64,000 nt of DNA from Thermoanaerobaculia bacterium (lineage in GTDB: Bacteria > Acidobacteriota > Thermoanaerobaculia > Multivoradales > J023). Below the pieces are notes generated by a model that was not told the DNA's origin, did no database searches, and saw only the letters and a list, made by a program, of their open reading frames with translations. The stretch covers positions 186,001 to 250,000 of the forward strand of contig JAUIJL010000004.1 of NCBI GenBank assembly GCA_030431255.1. The letters run 5' to 3'. Positions within the stretch are counted from its first letter, which is position 1. Every line of letters starts with the position of its first letter. The position numbers and the translations under genes are program-made. This document shows, in pieces, positions 4,255 through 56,634 of this stretch.

Positions 4255-6987
4255 TTGAAGCTCATCGTCAACACCGGCATGCGGGTCGCGGACCGATTCA
4301 CCGTCCTGCGATTTATCGCCGAAGGTGGCATGGGAGAGGTCTACGAGGCCCGCGACGAGGTCCTCGGCGAGCGGGTGGCGCTCAAATTCCTCAGCCACCG
4401 CAACCTCGGTGACGAAAACGTCACCCGACGCTTCCGTCGCGAGATCCAGCTCGCGCGCAAGGTCACCCACCCCAACGTGTGCCGGGTGTACGACGTCTAC
4501 CAGCACCACGCCCAAGTGCCCGGCACACAGCAGAGTGTTCCGGTGGCTTTCGTCACCATGGAGCTGCTCAGCGGCGAAACGCTGGAAGACCGCATTCAAA
4601 AGGGCGGAAAGCTGTCGGAAACCGAAGCCATGCCGGTGATCGTGCAGATGTGCCGGGCGCTGCAAGCGGCCCACGAGGCCGGCATCATCCACCGCGATTT
4701 CAAGAGCAACAACGTCATGTTGGTGCCCGGACGCGACGAAGGACGCCAACGGGTGGTGGTCACCGATTTCGGTCTCGCCCGGTCCATGGTGCCCAACGAT
4801 CCGTCTCGCACGCCGTTGACCGCCGACTCCTTGATTCTCGGCACCGCCGACTACATGTCACCGGAGCAGATCCGCGGGGATCCGGTCAGCCCGAAGAGCG
4901 ATCTCTACTCCCTCGGTGTGGTGATGTTCGAGATGCTGACCGGCGGCAAGCCGTATAACGCACCGAATCCCATGCAGCTGTTGGTCAAGCGAGTGAGCGA
5001 GCCACCGGCTCGACCCAGCGAGCTCACCCCCGGCATTTCCCCGGCCTGGGAAGCGGTGATCATGTCCTGCTTGGCGGAGGATCCGGGGGAACGGCCGGCT
5101 TCCGCCGAGGACGTCGTGCAGAGCTTGGAGATCACCGAGGAGCTCAGCGCGCTCTATCCGCCGGTCCGGCGGGACCCACCGGTCCAAGATACCTCCGAGA
5201 TTCCCCTGCCCGAGGAGGAATCGAAGAAGACCCGCCCCGGCTGGCCCGCGCTGGCGGTGCTCGTCGCGTTGGCGGCGCTCGCTTGGTGGGGCTCTCGGGA
5301 CGCCGGCGACGCCGATCGGCCGGCGCGTTTCAATCCCAAACGGTTGTCGTCCGCGCCCGGGGTGGAGCTCGACCCGGAGATCTCCCCGGACGGTCAACGG
5401 ATCGTCTACAGCGCCGAGCAAGACGACGGTGGCTTTCGACTGGTCGTACAAGGGCTGAGCGAGGGTGCGGTGCCCGAGGTGCTCGACATCGGCGAAGGTC
5501 AGGCTTTCGAGCCCATCTGGTCTCCCGACGGCAGCTCGATTCTCTTCCATCGACGACCGGACCAGGGTATCTGGCAGATCCCAGCCGGAGGTGGCCGGCC
5601 TACTCGATGGGTAGAGCACGGGAGCCGCCCCTCGTTCTCGGCCGAGGGTGATCGACTGGTCTTTCAAACCGGATCCTCGCCCCTTTTCTCCGACACCACG
5701 GTCCCGGCTTTTCCTCCTTCAGTGATCGCTCTGCTCGACGTCGAGAGTCGATCCCAGGAGCTGTTGACGGAGCCCAACGAGCCCGACGGCGGCCACGGCG
5801 CTCCCCTTTTCTCGCCCAATGGACGCTTTGTGGTCTTTGCCGCCTCCCGGCGCTCGATCTCCGAGCTGTGGGCGGTGGAGATCGACACCAAACGTTTGAT
5901 CCCCATCTTGCGGGTTCCCGCGGCGTACGATCCCGCGATCTCGGCCGATGGTCGGTCCCTCTTCTTCGTGTCCCGCCAACGGGAGGTCAAAGGTCTGTGG
6001 CGGGTCGAGATCGACCCGAGCACCATGGAGCCCGTTTCCGTGCCCCACGAGGTCGCCGGTGTCGGCCTTTCCAGCGTTCGCCAACCGAGCCTCGGGCCCG
6101 ACGGCAAGCTGGTCTTTGCCGCTTATTTGACCCGCAGCAATTTGTGGAGCGTTTCGGTGGACGCCGACGGCTCGACCACGGCGCCCCCACGGGCGTTGAC
6201 GGTCGGCAACGACCGCTACAACCGCCCGGCCTTTTCCCCGGACGGACGCTTTTTGGCCTTCGACCATTGGAAGCTCGGCATCGACATCGATGTTTTCCAG
6301 CTGAATCTCGAAACCGGTGAGCGGCGCCCTCTGACCCGCGGCAACCTCACCAACAGCCACGCCAGCTGGCTGCCGGACGGCCGAATCGTCTATTCCAAAA
6401 TCGACTCCACGGGCAAAACCACCGTCCAACGCCTCGATCCGGTCACGGACGAGGAAGAGATGCTTTTCCAATTGGAGAAGGGAAACGATTGGGTGAAGGT
6501 CTCACCCGACGGTCGGCAAGCCGCCTTCCATTCCTCCCGGGGCGGCGAGGATCTGGACATCTGGATTCGTGACCTCGAGCGAGGGCCTTCGTGGCGATTG
6601 ACCTTCCATGCCGAGCAGGCGGGATTCCCCGCGTGGTCCAGCCGCAGCGACGCGGTGGCCTATCACGTCCGGGTCAAGGACGGCACCCAGCTCTGGCTGG
6701 CGCCGCTGAAAGCGGGAGAGCCCCGCATGTTGGTCGACGCCCCCGGAGACAATTGGCCGTTCGGCTTTTCCGACGACGGCAAGAAGGTCGTATTCGCCGG
6801 ACGCCGCGACGGCCGGTGGAATATTTATTGGGTGTCGATCGAAGACGGCGAGATCCGAGCGCTCACCGACTCCCCGAGCCTCACCGGCTACCTGCGCTAC
6901 CCCACTTGGTCCCCCAACGGCGACCAAGTGGTCTACGAAAAATCAGAAACCACCAGCGACCTCTTCCTGGTGGAGGATTTTCGCTAG
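4255..6987 (+). CDS. Ser/Thr protein kinase with C-terminal PD40/TolB-like propeller
   Basis: About 910 residues from TTG 4255. ATG 4279 is equally plausible because neither has a convincing ribosome site. The kinase domain spans about residues 13-290: glycine loop G-E-G-G-M-G-E-V-Y, Lys44 (V-A-L-K), H-R-D at 146-148, D-F-G at 171-173, and S-P-E-Q in place of APE. All catalytic residues are present. A Pro/Glu-rich linker leads to one transmembrane helix (about 326-345). The rest is extracytoplasmic and carries repeated S-P-D-G-x motifs of PD40/TolB beta-propeller blades. This arrangement is typical of acidobacterial receptor kinases; the ligand is unknown. The 145 bp upstream holds no recognisable gene. 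Its stop lies 2 bp from that of the convergent gdhA. Confidence 0.88.
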   Translation: MKLIVNTGMRVADRFTVLRFIAEGGMGEVYEARDEVLGERVALKFLSHRNLGDENVTRRFRREIQLARKVTHPNVCRVYDVYQHHAQVPGTQQSVPVAFVTMELLSGETLEDRIQKGGKLSETEAMPVIVQMCRALQAAHEAGIIHRDFKSNNVMLVPGRDEGRQRVVVTDFGLARSMVPNDPSRTPLTADSLILGTADYMSPEQIRGDPVSPKSDLYSLGVVMFEMLTGGKPYNAPNPMQLLVKRVSEPPARPSELTPGISPAWEAVIMSCLAEDPGERPASAEDVVQSLEITEELSALYPPVRRDPPVQDTSEIPLPEEESKKTRPGWPALAVLVALAALAWWGSRDAGDADRPARFNPKRLSSAPGVELDPEISPDGQRIVYSAEQDDGGFRLVVQGLSEGAVPEVLDIGEGQAFEPIWSPDGSSILFHRRPDQGIWQIPAGGGRPTRWVEHGSRPSFSAEGDRLVFQTGSSPLFSDTTVPAFPPSVIALLDVESRSQELLTEPNEPDGGHGAPLFSPNGRFVVFAASRRSISELWAVEIDTKRLIPILRVPAAYDPAISADGRSLFFVSRQREVKGLWRVEIDPSTMEPVSVPHEVAGVGLSSVRQPSLGPDGKLVFAAYLTRSNLWSVSVDADGSTTAPPRALTVGNDRYNRPAFSPDGRFLAFDHWKLGIDIDVFQLNLETGERRPLTRGNLTNSHASWLPDGRIVYSKIDSTGKTTVQRLDPVTDEEEMLFQLEKGNDWVKVSPDGRQAAFHSSRGGEDLDIWIRDLERGPSWRLTFHAEQAGFPAWSSRSDAVAYHVRVKDGTQLWLAPLKAGEPRMLVDAPGDNWPFGFSDDGKKVVFAGRRDGRWNIYWVSIEDGEIRALTDSPSLTGYLRYPTWSPNGDQVVYEKSETTSDLFLVEDFR

Positions 6988-50307: not shown

Positions 50308-50955
50308 TCATCCCCTCGGCCGGCCCCGACGTGACCGTCGGCGAAAACGCTCCTCGGGCCCTTCCCCTTGCTCCATGAGCTGCCGACGTAATTTGTGAAT
50401 CCTCGCCATGAAACGGCGGAATTTGCGGTCTTGCTCCGGATCCAAGAGCTCCCGGGTGGCGAAATAGTTGGCGATGAAGGCCTGCTCAAGCTCGGATTGG
50501 CTTTGCCCCACCTCCCCGACCCAATGCTCCGCCCGACCCCGCTCCGGCGACGGGGACGTGAGCTCTCGACGAAGCCCCGCGCGAGCTGTCCTGAGCCGAT
50601 CCCTGCCTTCCACGGATCGATGGAAAAAATCCCGTTGAATCTCCAAAAAGGTATCTCGCCTGTCGTCCTTCAGCCCCAGCTCGTCCGCCATACGGTTGAC
50701 GATGCGCTCCAACCGGCGGGGCGCGATACCAAGATCCGATCGTCTTAGATCGCCCGCGACCCGATCCGCCGGATCGCTCGAGTTTCCCGCGGAGGCACCC
50801 GCCGGATCCCCTTCGGCTTGCTCCACCACGGCGGACGAACGCTCGCCTTGGGTCTTGGAGGCCAGCCATCCGGCCAACACTCCGATATTGATGCCCACCG
50901 ACAGCATCAAGACCCACATCCACCACCACCGTTTTCCCAACTGCTGGTTGCTCAC
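50308..50955 (-). CDS. Spy/CpxP-like periplasmic protein with membrane anchor
   Basis: 215 residues from GTG 50955, with AGGAG 8 bases upstream, overlapping the anti-sigma stop (GTGA). An N-terminal helix (W-M-W-V-L-M-L-S-V-G-I-N-I-G-V-L) is followed by a helical domain rich in Arg and Glu, with L-G-L-K-D-D-R-R-D-T-F and a L-D-P-E-Q-D-R-K-F-R-R-F element. These resemble the LTxxQ-type repeats of Spy/CpxP and heavy-metal sensor proteins. A very basic tail ends it. Third gene of an ECF sigma operon; probable envelope-stress sensor or chaperone. Confidence 0.7.
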   Translation of the reverse strand: MSNQQLGKRWWWMWVLMLSVGINIGVLAGWLASKTQGERSSAVVEQAEGDPAGASAGNSSDPADRVAGDLRRSDLGIAPRRLERIVNRMADELGLKDDRRDTFLEIQRDFFHRSVEGRDRLRTARAGLRRELTSPSPERGRAEHWVGEVGQSQSELEQAFIANYFATRELLDPEQDRKFRRFMARIHKLRRQLMEQGEGPEERFRRRSRRGRPRG

Positions 50956-51434
50956 GTCCCGTTCTCCTGCTCGTCGCCCAGCCCCCCACTGGAGGCTTCG
51001 AGGGCTCGCCAATACAAATCCGCCGAGGTCGGCTCCGCCGCAAGAAACAGGTCCCCGTCCGCGGACGGCTCAGAGACCTCGGGGGGAGGGCCGAACCCGG
51101 ACGTGGACACCAGCAATCCCATGACCAAACCGACCGCCAGGGACGCCAGGGATCCCGCTTTGATCCACACCGGAGCCGCAAACCAGCCGGCCACGCCCGG
51201 ATCCCGCTCCCGTCGACGCCGAATCTCCGACAGGATCCTCGAGGTCTGGTCGGGCACCTTCGGCTCCCCGATCGGCGGCGAAAGCGCCGACCATGTGGAC
51301 CGCAATTGCCGCAGGGCTGCGCGCAGCTGCTCATCCTCATCCAGTCGTTCTTTGAGCCGCCGGCGGGCCGCCTCGTCAAGCTCCCCGGCCACATAGCGCA
51401 TCAGCAACTTGATGTCTCGATCTCTAACCGCCAT
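50952..51434 (-). CDS. anti-sigma factor-like membrane protein
   Basis: 160 residues from ATG 51434, with AAGGGG 6 bases upstream. The N-terminal helical part (L-M-R-Y-V-A-G-E-L-D-E-A-A-R-R-R-L) matches the sigma-binding domain of ECF anti-sigma factors, but the H-x3-C-x2-C zinc motif is absent. A single transmembrane helix (about residues 93-113, A-S-L-A-V-G-L-V-M-G-L-L) precedes a short acidic periplasmic tail. It overlaps the sigma factor gene by 11 bp, which supports the anti-sigma role. Confidence 0.78.
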   Translation of the reverse strand: MAVRDRDIKLLMRYVAGELDEAARRRLKERLDEDEQLRAALRQLRSTWSALSPPIGEPKVPDQTSRILSEIRRRRERDPGVAGWFAAPVWIKAGSLASLAVGLVMGLLVSTSGFGPPPEVSEPSADGDLFLAAEPTSADLYWRALEASSGGLGDEQENGT

Positions 51435-52092
51435 GTCCAACCCCTTGTTGAATGCCGAGGGCTTGTAAACGCCGCATGGCGCGAACCAAGCGACTCTCCA
51501 CCGCACTTTCCGTAATGCCCAAGGTCTGGGAAATCTCTCGATAGGACAACCCTTCGAGCTTCGCCAGCACCAACACCGACCGCTGATTCAAGGGCAATCG
51601 ATCGATGGCTGCTTTGACCTGGGCCCAACGACGACGGTCCGCCAACCGCTGCTCCGCGTCCGGCCCGGAGTCGGCTGGATCCCACTCCGCGGCGGGCGCC
51701 TCACCCTGAGCTTTCGGCGCGAGCTCCGCCAACGACAAGAAGGTCGCCAGCTTGCGACGCCGCAGGCGGTTCAAACAATGGTTGACCGCGATCCGATACA
51801 ACCAGGTCGACACCTTGGCATTGGGACGAAAGGCCGAGCATCCCCGATAGGCCTTGAGAAACACTTCTTGGGTGGCCTCGCCGGCGTCCTCGGAGCTACC
51901 CAACATGCGCTCGCACAATCGCCACAACCTCGGCTGGTGGCGCTCCACGAGCACACCGAAGGACTCCACATCACCCTCGGCAACACGGAGCAAAATCGGT
52001 AGGTCGGGGTCCTGGAGGACTTCGGCAGACTGCGTCACATGTGTTGAAACACGCCGGATCTGGATTTCCTGCGGGGAATTTTCAAATTTCAC
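51424..52092 (-). CDS. ECF-type RNA polymerase sigma factor
   Basis: 222 residues. Region 2: F-G-V-L-V-E-R-H-Q-P-R-L-W-R-L, A-T-Q-E-V-F-L-K-A-Y-R-G and F-R-P-N-A-K-V-S-T-W-L-Y-R-I-A-V-N-H (the -10 recognition part). Region 4: L-P-L-N-Q-R-S-V-L-V-L-A-K-L-E-G-L-S-Y-R-E-I-S-Q-T-L-G-I-T-E-S-A-V-E (a helix-turn-helix for the -35), described here in parts. Start GTG 52092 has no strong ribosome site, and an internal GTG is possible. Operon with anti-sigma and Spy-like genes implies envelope-stress control. Confidence 0.92.
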   Translation of the reverse strand: MKFENSPQEIQIRRVSTHVTQSAEVLQDPDLPILLRVAEGDVESFGVLVERHQPRLWRLCERMLGSSEDAGEATQEVFLKAYRGCSAFRPNAKVSTWLYRIAVNHCLNRLRRRKLATFLSLAELAPKAQGEAPAAEWDPADSGPDAEQRLADRRRWAQVKAAIDRLPLNQRSVLVLAKLEGLSYREISQTLGITESAVESRLVRAMRRLQALGIQQGVGHGG

Positions 52093-52165: not shown

Positions 52166-54805
52166 TTAGACGGTGATGTCTTCCAAATCTTTCACCAGCC
52201 GCTCGGCCGACTCATAACGTTGATCCGGAGCGATTTGAAGGCATTTCAAGAGGATTTCTTCCATCTTGGGCGGGATCTCGGCCACCAAAGAGGTGGGTAC
52301 CTCGGGAGCGCCCTCCGCCATCCTGCGTCGGATCTCGTCGGAGCCGGCACCGGGATAGGGCAGCTTACCCGTCAGCATGGAGTACACCACCGCACCGAAG
52401 CTGAAGAAATCGGCGCGGGAGTCGGGCTCCCGGGCCTCCAGCTGCTCGGGGGAGAGATAACCCGGGGCTTCGATGGCCACGCCGGCGCGCACCGGCATAC
52501 CCAAGCCGAAGTCCATGATTTTCACCGTACCCAAGGTGTCGATCAGAATATTTTCGGGTTTGAGCCCGCTGTGCATCAGCTGTTGCTCATGGGCCGCAGC
52601 CAATCCTCGAGCGATTTCACGAGCGAAACGAACCCCGGCCACCACCGGCACTTGTCGCGCCTGCTCCAGCAGATAAGCCACAGTGAAGCCACGGGCGAAT
52701 TCCATCTCGATATACGGTAGACGCTCGGCCTCGCCGAAGTCCAGAACGCTCAAAACATTGGGGTGACGAATGGAACGTGCTTTGGCGACCGCCCGTTTCA
52801 GCCGCTCGAAGAGGGCGGCATCTTGCATCACCTCGGGTCGCAGCATCTTGAGACTGACGAGATCCCCCAGATCACGATCGTGGGCCTTCCACACAATGCC
52901 CATGCGCCCCGCGCCGAGCTCGTCGAGCATGTCGAAACGGCTCGCCAAAAGGACGCCGCGACGGAGGTCGGCCAGACCTCGACCCTCGCCACCGGAGCCG
53001 CCGTCGGTCAAGGCTTGGACACCGGTCATGCGACCCGCGGACTCGGAATCCACCAAATAAAGCGGCTGCGGGCTGAGGATGCCCCGTTGGCCTTTGACCT
53101 GGACCTGTGCCCGTTGAAAAAGCTGTCCGAGCTCGGAATACACCTGCTTAGAAAAGTAAAGCCCCCCGGGCGATGCCTCGCGCATCAAGCTTTCCAAGAT
53201 CTGGACGGGAACACCGGCCACCGCCGGACCGGAGGACACCGAGCCGCTGATCATCGGTCCGCTGGAAAGGGCCACCACCGGCGGGCTCGGCTCGTCGAAG
53301 ACGTTGTCCCGCTCCGAAAGGGTAAGCATCACCTCCGTCGCCGCGCAGAAGGCACGCCAGGTGCAATGCTCACCCTCGAAGGCGAGCAAAACCCGATGCC
53401 CCTGAATCGACATGACGTCACCCTTTTGGGTCCGGGTGGAGGTGGAGATCTTCTGAAGATCTCGACCCAGTCGATTGATGTTCTCTTCGGCGTCGTAGCC
53501 GATTTTGGGATCCGCGTAGCGACGCATCTCCACGCCCACCACACAAAGGTGCCCGGCCTTCGCCGCGCTCTGAGCGCTTTCTTGGGCGGGCTCGGGCAAC
53601 AATCGGGACACCCGGCCGACCACGAACTCCACCGCGGATTTCTCGCGGAGCTGAGCGAAGAGCTCACTGACGGCCTGTGAAATGCGTTTGGCGTCGCCGC
53701 TACCGGTCGGCAGCTGAACATCCCAATGCCCTTGGACCCCATGAGTCACGGCGTCGGCCAAACGGGTGAACGGGCGATACACCCAGGACGCCAAACCGAA
53801 AGCCAGCAAAGCTCCGGCCAGCAGCGCAAGCCCACCCGCCGCCAACGCCACACCGCTGATGGTGTTGAAGCTCTGGAGGGTATCCCCCAAGGAAGTCAAC
53901 GACGCGGCGGCTCCCACCGAGCCCCCCGCCGCATCCCTCAAGGGCGCCATGAACGCGGTCCAGGTCTCGCCGCCGAGCTCGATCTCCACGCGATCGACCA
54001 CCTCGCCCTCCTCCATCACCCGACCGAGGACATCCCCTTGCTTTCTCAATGCCGCCACCAGCTCCTGGGACGCGCCGTCATCGAGAGTTGAGGCTGCGGG
54101 CGCGGGTCCGACGCCGGACTCGGCGAGGAAAACGATTTCAGCGCCGCCCGTACGTTTGATTTGGGCGGCCAGGGTGTTGTTGATGGAATACGCGACGACG
54201 ATATATCCCACCAGCTCGAATTGGCGCACCAGCGGCACGGCCAAGGCGTGGTAGAGCTGATCCTGCTGTTGCCAAACCCCGGACGCCTTGCTTTCTTTCA
54301 ATGCCAGCGCCACCAGCGGAGTGGACGACAAATCCTCACCGCTGGCGCTGCGGTCGTCCGTGCGGGTCAGCACCACCCCGTTGCGATCCAGCACCACCGC
54401 CAAATCAAACGTCAGCAGATCCTGATACTCCTCGACGGACGCGAGAATCGCCGCTTCGTCTCGAGCTTGGGCCGCCGCGGCCAGGTAGGAGGTCAGGACT
54501 TGATCGGTCGAAAAAATGCGGGAAATCAAATTCAGCCGCAAATATCGCTGCTGTTGGAGAATCGAGAGCACCGCATTGCTGCCGGGAAGCACCTTATCGA
54601 TAGTGGCGCGAGCGGTTTCGGCCCGCTCCTTGGCAGTCACCAAAGCCGTGCTTCCGGCAATCACTCCGGCCACCAAGACCACCATCAGCACCAGCAAGAG
54701 CGCCAGCTTGATCGTCCCCGATCCCCCGGTCGAGCCGGCGCCTCGGGTACCGCTCTTGGCCGGCCTACCCGGTTTAAGTTTCTTTGCCTTGGGTTGCTTG
54801 GCCAT
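52166..54805 (-). CDS. Cache-HAMP-cyclase-like protein with C-terminal pseudokinase
   Basis: 879 residues from ATG 54805, with GGGGAG 8 bases upstream. Order: basic N-terminus, TM helix (32-55), large periplasmic Cache-like sensor (about 60-310), second TM (318-340), HAMP linker (341-390), a degenerate class III cyclase-like domain (about 415-590; V-G-V-E-M-R-R-Y, G-D-V-M-S-I-Q-G-H-R-V-L-L-A-F), and a kinase domain (623-879). The kinase keeps G-A-G-R-M-G, Lys653 and D-F-G (765-767), but the H-R-D triad reads H745-S-G747, so the catalytic Asp is missing, and the alpha-C Glu position appears to be Ala672. It should bind nucleotide but not phosphorylate: a sensory pseudokinase. Confidence 0.82.
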   Translation of the reverse strand: MAKQPKAKKLKPGRPAKSGTRGAGSTGGSGTIKLALLLVLMVVLVAGVIAGSTALVTAKERAETARATIDKVLPGSNAVLSILQQQRYLRLNLISRIFSTDQVLTSYLAAAAQARDEAAILASVEEYQDLLTFDLAVVLDRNGVVLTRTDDRSASGEDLSSTPLVALALKESKASGVWQQQDQLYHALAVPLVRQFELVGYIVVAYSINNTLAAQIKRTGGAEIVFLAESGVGPAPAASTLDDGASQELVAALRKQGDVLGRVMEEGEVVDRVEIELGGETWTAFMAPLRDAAGGSVGAAASLTSLGDTLQSFNTISGVALAAGGLALLAGALLAFGLASWVYRPFTRLADAVTHGVQGHWDVQLPTGSGDAKRISQAVSELFAQLREKSAVEFVVGRVSRLLPEPAQESAQSAAKAGHLCVVGVEMRRYADPKIGYDAEENINRLGRDLQKISTSTRTQKGDVMSIQGHRVLLAFEGEHCTWRAFCAATEVMLTLSERDNVFDEPSPPVVALSSGPMISGSVSSGPAVAGVPVQILESLMREASPGGLYFSKQVYSELGQLFQRAQVQVKGQRGILSPQPLYLVDSESAGRMTGVQALTDGGSGGEGRGLADLRRGVLLASRFDMLDELGAGRMGIVWKAHDRDLGDLVSLKMLRPEVMQDAALFERLKRAVAKARSIRHPNVLSVLDFGEAERLPYIEMEFARGFTVAYLLEQARQVPVVAGVRFAREIARGLAAAHEQQLMHSGLKPENILIDTLGTVKIMDFGLGMPVRAGVAIEAPGYLSPEQLEAREPDSRADFFSFGAVVYSMLTGKLPYPGAGSDEIRRRMAEGAPEVPTSLVAEIPPKMEEILLKCLQIAPDQRYESAERLVKDLEDITV

Positions 54806-55012
54806 TCCGATCACTCCCCGCCACCGCTGAGGTGGGCTGGAAACCGTGTAGATGAGGATTTCAATCCGGTGAGGCGAGACTTTATCAGACCCCAGGGCCG
54901 AAGACTGGGCGAAGAAGACCGGGCGAAGAAGACCGTGAACAACACCTGTTCAGCCGACACTCGCGCCCACCCCCCCTTGCCGTCGGCGGCTTCCAATGGT
55001 CAGATTGGCGAC

Positions 55013-56173
55013 ATGAATTCCACTCATCCCAGAGAAGGCACCAGCCCCGGACGAGTCGATCGAGAAGCGGCCGATCTGGACACGGAGTCACTCGTTCGAC
55101 GGGTGACCGCTTTCGTCGGCCAAGGTACAGGAAGCTTCGAAACGCTGGCCCGAGAAGCCTTCGACTTTCAATATCACCGCGTGGCTCCCTTCCGTCGCCT
55201 CTGCGATCATCGCGGCCTGACCCCTCAATCCCTCGATCCGTTCGATTGGACCCGCATCCCGGCGGTGCCGGTCATGGCGTTTCGCCGCCAGAAGCTACAC
55301 GCCGCCGAACCGGTGGAAATCTTTCGCTCCAGCGGCACCACCGGCGGAGCACAAGCACGCAGCGTGCACTACCATCCCTTCCCCGATCTGTACCGGCGGG
55401 TGATCGACGCGACCTTCCCCCATGCGTGTCTGCCGGCGGACTGCCCCCCCGGCCGTCGCCCCATGCTCTCCTTGGTGCCCTCGCGCTCGACGGTCCCCGA
55501 TTCCAGTCTCGGCTTCATGTGTGAGCACATCGTGAATCGCTTCGCGACCGCCGGCTCCGTGGTCGCGATGGGAGCCGATGGTCTGGACGCGGACGCGGCC
55601 AATACCTGGGTAGACGGCTTGCGAGGTAGACCCGGCACCATCCTCACCACCGCTTTCGCGCTGTCCTATTGGCTCGATGCCCTTGAGCAAGCGGGTCTGA
55701 GGAAAGAGTTGCCGAAGGGCTCGACTCTGTTTGAAACCGGCGGTTTTAAAGGCCGTGCGCGGGAGCTTGAACGCAGAGAGCTGCTCGAACGCATTGAGCG
55801 GCTCTTGGGCCTGTCCCCGCGGACCGTCGTCCGCGAATACGGCATGACCGAGCTCACCGGCCACTTCTATACCGATGTGTTGCACGGTGGGCATCCCGAT
55901 CGCTTCGTGGTGCCACCGTTCATGCGAGTCCGCATGTTGGATCCCGAATCGTTGACGGAGGTGCCTGCGGGAGAGCCCGGCCTGGTCTCGTTCTTCGACC
56001 TGAGCAACGTCGGCTCCATACTGCACGTCATCACCCAAGATCTCGGCATTTCGGAGCCCTCCGGGGCGGATACCGGGACGTCCGAATTCTGGCTCCTGGG
56101 TCGTGCCGACGACGCTCAGCTGCGAGGCTGCTCCCTGACCGCCGAGGAATTGAATAGCCCCAACATGTTATGA
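55013..56173 (+). CDS. LuxE-like acyl-protein synthetase/ligase
   Basis: 386 residues from ATG 55013; the open frame continues upstream but crosses the divergent kinase gene. LuxE/PaaK-type adenylating features: F-R-S-S-G-T-T-G-G at about 103-111 (the P-loop-like ATP site), F-E-T-G-G-F-K-G-R, and V-R-E-Y-G-M-T-E-L near residue 280. LuxE enzymes activate fatty acids in bioluminescence, but stand-alone homologues in non-luminous bacteria are annotated as acyl-protein synthetases with unknown acceptors. No lux reductase or acyl transferase gene is nearby. Confidence 0.83.
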   Translation: MNSTHPREGTSPGRVDREAADLDTESLVRRVTAFVGQGTGSFETLAREAFDFQYHRVAPFRRLCDHRGLTPQSLDPFDWTRIPAVPVMAFRRQKLHAAEPVEIFRSSGTTGGAQARSVHYHPFPDLYRRVIDATFPHACLPADCPPGRRPMLSLVPSRSTVPDSSLGFMCEHIVNRFATAGSVVAMGADGLDADAANTWVDGLRGRPGTILTTAFALSYWLDALEQAGLRKELPKGSTLFETGGFKGRARELERRELLERIERLLGLSPRTVVREYGMTELTGHFYTDVLHGGHPDRFVVPPFMRVRMLDPESLTEVPAGEPGLVSFFDLSNVGSILHVITQDLGISEPSGADTGTSEFWLLGRADDAQLRGCSLTAEELNSPNML

Positions 56174-56283: not shown

Positions 56284-56634
56284 ATGGAAATCGATTTGAG
56301 GAAAGTTGAGGACGTGATCATCCTCGACATGACGGGTCGCTTGACGGCCGGTATCGGCGACATTGTGCTCCAAGAGGCGATGAACCAGCTGGTTGCCGAC
56401 GATTGGAAGAAAATCCTGCTGAACCTTTCAAAGGTGAGCAAAATCGACAGCGCCGGCATCGGTGAGCTGATGGCGTCGGTGAAGCTCGCTCGTCGTTTTG
56501 GATGCGACGCTCGGCTGTTGAATGTTCAAGGACAAGTGCTGCGCATCCTGGAGCTCTCCCAGCTTCTGCCGCTCCTGGACGTGTACCAGAGCGAAGAGGA
56601 CGCGATCACTTCGTTTGCCGCGTCGGCCGAGTAG
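56284..56634 (+). CDS. STAS-domain anti-sigma factor antagonist
   Basis: 116 residues, a single STAS domain. The phosphorylatable Ser56 lies in K-I-D-S-A-G-I-G-E-L, as in SpoIIAA/RsbV proteins, with V-I-I-L-D-M-T-G-R-L at the N-terminus. It would be switched by an RsbW-type kinase, which is not encoded in the window. Preceded by a 110-bp gap after the LuxE-like gene, with AAAGGAAT near the start. Confidence 0.92.
   Translation: MEIDLRKVEDVIILDMTGRLTAGIGDIVLQEAMNQLVADDWKKILLNLSKVSKIDSAGIGELMASVKLARRFGCDARLLNVQGQVLRILELSQLLPLLDVYQSEEDAITSFAASAE

Follow-up and report, generated by a model that had tools for sequence, protein, structure and literature searches.

A pseudokinase is defined as a protein kinase fold in which the β3 lysine, the HRD aspartate or the DFG aspartate is missing (PMC12599244). 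In HER3, both the αC glutamate and the HRD aspartate are lost, and Lys, Asn and DFG are retained; the protein binds ATP together with a single Mg and acts as an allosteric activator of EGFR/HER2 (PMC4718504). The published bacterial pseudokinase families are ActPs1-3, GLW, CP1, DYD and DLHK, which have mostly lost the lysine and/or DFG. In five published families all three motifs count as degraded, CP1 of cyanobacteria and proteobacteria shows variable motif loss, and Cache, HAMP or cyclase domains are not described for any of the families (PMC12599244). MviN is a pseudokinase domain capable of back-to-back dimerisation (PMC12599244). In most of the described bacterial families the ATP-binding motifs have been lost and the function is not known.

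Here we analysed the window, a stretch of 64,000 nucleotides from a Thermoanaerobaculia bacterium, in which the gene P0001 encodes a membrane receptor. P0001 possesses the kinase fold and has lost at least one of the three defining residues, the HRD aspartate being replaced by Gly747, and its assignment as a receptor pseudokinase is strongly supported. At one fixed locus, the sequences document the active ancestor, intermediates (HLD/HGD; αC glutamate gone) and fully altered copies alike. Each genome with an altered copy also holds an active paralogue, which offers a testable case for HER3-like allosteric pairing of receptors outside eukaryotes.

Domain architecture of P0001

The open reading frame starts with an ATG at 54805 and runs down the minus strand to 52166, with a GTG at 54814 as an alternative start. 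Two transmembrane helices (residues ~32–58 and ~318–342) lie on either side of the Cache domain and are followed by a HAMP-like stretch, which is the layout of dCache/HAMP receptors (Table 1). A domain search gave no scoring match for HAMP in P0001 itself. HAMP does score in the intact relatives L048 and L053, the latter being the paralogue of P0001 in its own genome, and the corresponding stretch of P0001 aligns to it. The kinase fold is matched by PknB/Stk structures in the PDB with E values of 1e-32 to 1e-34. An earlier, sequence-only reading had proposed a transmembrane receptor with Cache and HAMP domains. The two helices, dCache_3 and Pkinase bear out the receptor and its Cache domain (PF14827), whereas HAMP is assigned in P0001 only by alignment to its relatives.

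Table 1. Features of P0001 and of the genes around it, in window coordinates.
Feature	Coordinates	Strand	Description and evidence
Receptor pseudokinase gene (P0001)	52166..54805	minus	879 aa; TM1 - dCache_3 - TM2 - HAMP-like - cyclase-like - pseudokinase
dCache_3 extracytoplasmic sensor domain	53912..54493	minus	residues 105–298; Pfam PF14827, E 3.2e-12
Degenerate class III nucleotide-cyclase-like domain	53039..53572	minus	residues ~412–589; family profile against PDB cyclases; second metal Asp replaced by His470
Pseudokinase domain	52202..52930	minus	residues 626–868; Pfam PF00069 Pkinase, 129.9 bits (cut-off 31.7)
β3 Lys653, kept	52847..52849	minus	sequence and alignment
αC Glu position, Ala672	52790..52792	minus	Glu in 37/37 intact relatives, 0/9 pseudokinases
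HRD replaced by His745-Ser746-Gly747 (codons CAC AGC GGG)	52565..52573	minus	sequence and alignment
Catalytic-loop Asn752 (Mg ligand), kept	52550..52552	minus	sequence and alignment
DFG 765–767, kept	52505..52513	minus	sequence and alignment
ECF sigma factor	51424..52092	minus	73 bp downstream of receptor, same strand; adjoins intact and pseudokinase copies; acidic σ2.2 kept
Anti-sigma factor (soluble N-terminal part and TM)	50952..51506	minus	overlaps ECF gene; NCBIfam antisigma E 2e-11, under curated cut-off; syntenic homologues
Membrane-anchored periplasmic Metal_resist (CnrX/ZraP-like) protein	50308..51012	minus	Pfam PF13801, 29.4 bits, barely above cut-off
LuxE-like acyl-protein synthetase gene	54983..56173	plus	divergent, conserved flanking marker; Pfam PF04443 and synteny

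Kinase motif residues

That HRD has become HSG and the αC glutamate Ala672, with the glycine loop, Lys653 and DFG retained, had been read from the sequence alone, and alignment confirmed each of these at the same residue numbers; Asn752 is retained likewise. The column of Gly747 is occupied by aspartate in 37/37 intact relatives. Among the nine altered copies of the receptor, the αC glutamate column reads A, V, L, V, V, H, A, G, G and the HRD aspartate column G, G, A, G, G, D, D, R, R, the aspartate being lost in seven and kept in two. The HRD arginine is gone in all nine, the P+1 GT is mostly absent and the activation loop is shorter. Lys653, Asn752 and the DFG aspartate are each retained in eight of the nine copies, L024 being the exception, as are the APE glutamate in nine and the αF aspartate in eight.

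Such a mixture of kept and lost residues could belong to a weak or atypical kinase, one with low-level catalysis or another acceptor despite the missing HRD aspartate and αC glutamate. The retention of Lys653, Asn752 and DFG would suit it, and HER3 autophosphorylates weakly in vitro (PMC4718504). However, the αC glutamate, the HRD arginine and aspartate and the P+1 GT are lost, the activation loop is shortened, and the HRD aspartate has turned into Gly, Ala or Arg depending on the member, with no common substitute. We regard residual catalysis as quite unlikely.

The back-to-back dimer interface of PknB is formed by R10, L33 and D76. R623 and D689, which align to R10 and D76, are retained in 9/9 altered copies, and L646, the equivalent of L33, in just five. 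A parallel L750/D793 has been described in MviN, which supports this role of the three PknB residues (PMC12599244). The conservation of R623 and D689 may reflect folding as well as dimerisation.

The most eroded copy is L024, from genome G005 of the window's own family (f1), in which the β3 lysine, the asparagine and DFG are all lost while the frame is open. Nucleotide binding would thus not be essential in every genome, and L024 is probably a natural case in which it is dispensable.

Cyclase-like domain

A Pfam search of the cyclase-like domain returned nothing usable, and the family profile of this domain matches class III adenylyl cyclases (2w01, E 3e-13). The second metal aspartate is present in 0/47 family members, with histidine at this position in 39, including His470 of P0001; of the transition-state residues, the asparagine occurs in none of the 47 and the arginine in two. 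The domain is homologous in fold to class III nucleotidyl cyclases and lacks their full set of two metal aspartates and transition-state Asn/Arg, so the degeneracy suspected from the sequence is confirmed by these column counts. Because receptors with an intact kinase are degenerate here too, the loss in the cyclase-like domain is older than that in the kinase and separate from it; with all 47 members affected, a joint death of cyclase and kinase is ruled out. The proposal of two dead enzyme folds therefore holds in that both lack catalytic residues, but the two were not lost together. Most likely, the cyclase-like domain is a relay that acts structurally or through dimerisation.

Distribution and shared origin of the loss

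Whole-genome searches at E ≤ 1e-70 found full-length homologues in 39 of the 149 genomes of the class, and none outside the class in a sample of the phylum. Two receptor copies are present in all seven f1 genomes and in both genomes of family f7, and the remaining families with matches yielded one copy. Each of the nine f1/f7 genomes carries one intact and one altered copy, the intact paralogue of P0001 (L034/L053) lying at G000:C15:1141464-1144022 in its own genome. Same-family homologues at 48–50% identity have the same loss as P0001. A local mutation or sequencing error is ruled out by a pattern common to nine homologues.

Intact HRD motifs in orthologues had been named beforehand as the sign of a local mutation. 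In other families, the orthologues that occupy this locus do have an intact HRD and αC glutamate, but the change spans the whole f1/f7 lineage: aligned at residues 672 and 745–747, all the altered copies of the two families show the loss (that of the aspartate in 7/9), and the motifs are intact elsewhere.

The nine altered copies form one clade in the full-length tree (SH-aLRT 99) and also in a tree without the kinase domain (bootstrap 99, SH-aLRT 98), so that the grouping is not an artefact of common loss inside the kinase domain. A separate origin of the f7 pseudokinase from the f7 active copy is disfavoured, with a p-AU of 0.08 that falls short of formal rejection, and synteny agrees with a shared f1/f7 origin. 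Since L012 and L024 retain the HRD aspartate, this residue was probably lost at least two times, and the order suggested by these copies is that the HRD arginine and the αC glutamate went first. As a separate observation, the f4 receptors L026 and L075 are non-RD, with HGD and HLD respectively, and keep the αC glutamate and the aspartate. They may represent a first step toward the pseudokinases, beside which their placement is weakly supported.

Genomic locus

The order LuxE-receptor-ECF-anti-sigma-Metal_resist is found at intact receptors in families f2, f5, f8 and f9 and at the pseudokinases of f1 and f7; a few loci are without one marker, and at three f1 pseudokinase loci no ECF homologue was detected. 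The intact f1 and f7 paralogues lie elsewhere in the genome, without ECF or LuxE. Since sister families have the same gene order at intact receptors, the pseudokinase occupies an active-kinase locus. P0001 is best explained as the descendant of an active Ser/Thr receptor kinase with Cache, HAMP and cyclase-like domains; in the f1/f7 lineage, the copy at the LuxE/ECF locus lost its phosphotransfer residues and an active paralogue persisted elsewhere. Beyond LuxE, a STAS-domain anti-anti-sigma-like gene (56284–56634, plus strand), which adjoins LuxE in L041 (G002) too, is possibly part of the conserved neighbourhood.

A CnrYXH-type cassette combines an ECF sigma factor with an anti-sigma factor and a periplasmic protein of the Metal_resist family. 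The same make-up, with a membrane anti-sigma factor, is present here, the anti-sigma and Metal_resist scores being weak or marginal. The σ2.2 motif of the ECF factor, EDAGEATQE, is acidic, unlike that of the ECF43 type, which is marked by a non-acidic σ2.2 with a conserved threonine and by a kinase neighbour. With an acidic σ2.2 and an adjacent anti-sigma factor, direct phosphorylation of the sigma factor in the ECF43 manner is unsupported and such phospho-activation is not the expected output; for the same reasons, the ECF factor need not be governed by the receptor. A comparison by eye revealed no systematic difference in ECF or anti-sigma sequence between pseudokinase and intact loci.

This neighbourhood bears on whether P0001 needs a partner at all. 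As a homodimeric receptor, it could scaffold or gate the anti-sigma/ECF pair directly through a nucleotide- or protein-binding pseudokinase domain, the paralogue not being needed. In both f1 and f7 the pseudokinase is adjacent to and co-directional with ECF-anti-sigma-Metal_resist, as in the intact relatives; the ECF gene has been kept despite the lost catalytic residues, so that kinase activity is seemingly not required there; and MviN provides a precedent for scaffold pseudokinases (PMC12599244). However, the module's own anti-sigma factor and CnrX-like sensor can suffice, and there are the three f1 loci without a detected ECF. We give a receptor acting on its own a modest chance.

Upstream cupredoxin-like protein

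Of the 31 intact receptors whose upstream sequence could be read, 30 have a gene for a secreted cupredoxin-like protein directly upstream; none of the nine pseudokinases, the window locus included, has one. The protein carries an amicyanin/plastocyanin-like His-Cys-His-Met motif (LHN...CNVH...M) of type-1 copper ligands and a CarboxypepD_reg-like C-terminal part; examples are L050:7211-7975 and L054:7217-7951, with 28 other loci. As the pseudokinases are one clade, its absence from them counts as one coincident loss rather than nine independent ones. The protein is a candidate copper/redox input or ligand for the Cache receptor kinase. L089, which is the same gene as the f4 receptor L026, is also without the upstream cupredoxin gene and may represent an early stage of the same process.

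Selection and rarity

Between G003 and G006, dN/dS is 0.098 for the pseudokinase domain, 0.077 for its Cache region and 0.092 for the cyclase-like domain, compared with 0.027 for the kinase domain of the intact paralogue, these values being rough because synonymous divergence is high (dS ~1). The pseudokinase domain is under purifying selection, on a par with the remainder of the protein and looser than that on the active kinase. Full-length frames are open in all genomes at 34–50% identity, which together with dN/dS rules out a pseudogene. A duplicate still decaying toward that state would account for the further motif loss in L024 and for the faster evolution of the pseudokinase domain; but the open frames at such divergence, a dN/dS of ~0.1 over all domains and the selective retention of Lys, Asn and DFG make it very improbable. 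Given that the loss is common to two families, each with a working copy, P0001 is best seen as a probable partner in signalling rather than a broken gene.

Among 92 kinase domains taken as a sample of this genome, that of P0001 is the only one without the HRD aspartate, and a kinome broadly rich in dead kinases is ruled out by this sample. With at least 159 matches to Hanks-type kinase domains in 10.2 Mb, the genome has a very large kinome for a bacterium, and a further match lies inside the window at ~4300–5121 on the plus strand.

Proposed mechanism

P0001 had been proposed to be a nucleotide- or protein-binding switch and not a catalyst. This fits a kinase domain that has lost the catalytic aspartate and the αC glutamate and kept the nucleotide/Mg residues, in a loss that is old, conserved and under selection. 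Our tentative reading, to which we give somewhat less than an even chance, is that P0001 is a nucleotide-binding, non-catalytic, allosteric co-receptor at the ECF operon, perhaps working via the active paralogue, a pairing mechanism that we infer. The Cache domain would sense a periplasmic or envelope signal, which HAMP and the inert cyclase-like domain, working as a dimer switch, would relay. With Mg-ATP probably bound, the pseudokinase domain would then exert an allosteric effect by way of a PknB-type N-lobe dimer. Its likeliest partner would be the active paralogue, as EGFR/HER2 is for HER3, this being the most economical route, and the signal would likely be read out by the neighbouring ECF sigma/anti-sigma module or by the substrates of the paralogue. 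As the intact copy is the ancestral state in the class, its co-occurrence with the pseudokinase is partly trivial.

The same pairing might have the opposite sign, with P0001 as an inhibitory decoy that dampens the paralogue through a heterodimer or by competing for ligand or substrates. The identical domain layout, the pairing in 9/9 genomes and the retained dimer-face residues agree with it as well, but the sequence offers nothing to separate inhibition from activation; we consider a decoy unlikely. Within the co-receptor reading, one may go further and suppose an independently evolved kinase/pseudokinase receptor pair of the HER2/HER3 kind. The active paralogue would keep the secreted blue-copper-like protein as its dedicated input; the pseudokinase, no longer tied to that input or to catalysis, would remain coupled to the ECF operon, to which it would help convey the signal as the allosteric member of a heterodimer. 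This fuller scheme is speculative and on the doubtful side.

Comparison with known systems

Like HER3/ErbB3, P0001 has lost the αC glutamate and the HRD aspartate, keeps Lys, Asn and DFG, and is a receptor with an active paralogue in the same organism. Unlike HER3, it is of the bacterial Hanks-type Ser/Thr lineage and combines dCache, HAMP and an inert cyclase-like domain, and the likeness in residue pattern is convergent; membership of the HER/ErbB family is excluded, the best matches being bacterial Ser/Thr kinases (Stk/PknB). The active orthologues across the class (L006, L009, L011 and L034 of the same genome) share the full-length domain order, and in f2, f5, f8 and f9 the locus as well, but differ in their intact Glu, HRD and activation loop and in the secreted type-1-copper-like gene directly upstream.

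With ActPs1-3, GLW, CP1, DYD and DLHK, P0001 shares the Hanks fold; several of these are membrane-bound, and DYD is also without the αC glutamate (PMC12599244). As far as families compared by description allow, P0001 does not belong to ActPs1-3, GLW, DYD or DLHK, since Lys653 and DFG765–767 are present, and its closest relatives found are motif-intact receptors of the same class. The mycobacterial MviN domain (ActPs3) is likewise part of a bacterial membrane protein and retains PknB-like residues at the dimer face, but it has lost all motifs and binds neither ATP nor Mg. In the ECF43-kinase pairs EcfP/PknT and EcfK/PknS, an ECF sigma gene also adjoins a transmembrane Hanks-type receptor (PMC13147305), whereas the ECF factor here has an acidic σ2.2 and an anti-sigma factor, and the receptor is without catalytic residues. 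Compared with the CnrYXH-type cassette, the same three components are joined here by an extra Cache receptor upstream. Judged by its motifs, P0001 is a pseudokinase by definition and HER3-like by pattern, and stands outside both the HER family and the bacterial families that lose Lys or DFG, as these are described, CP1 being set apart from them by its variable motif loss.
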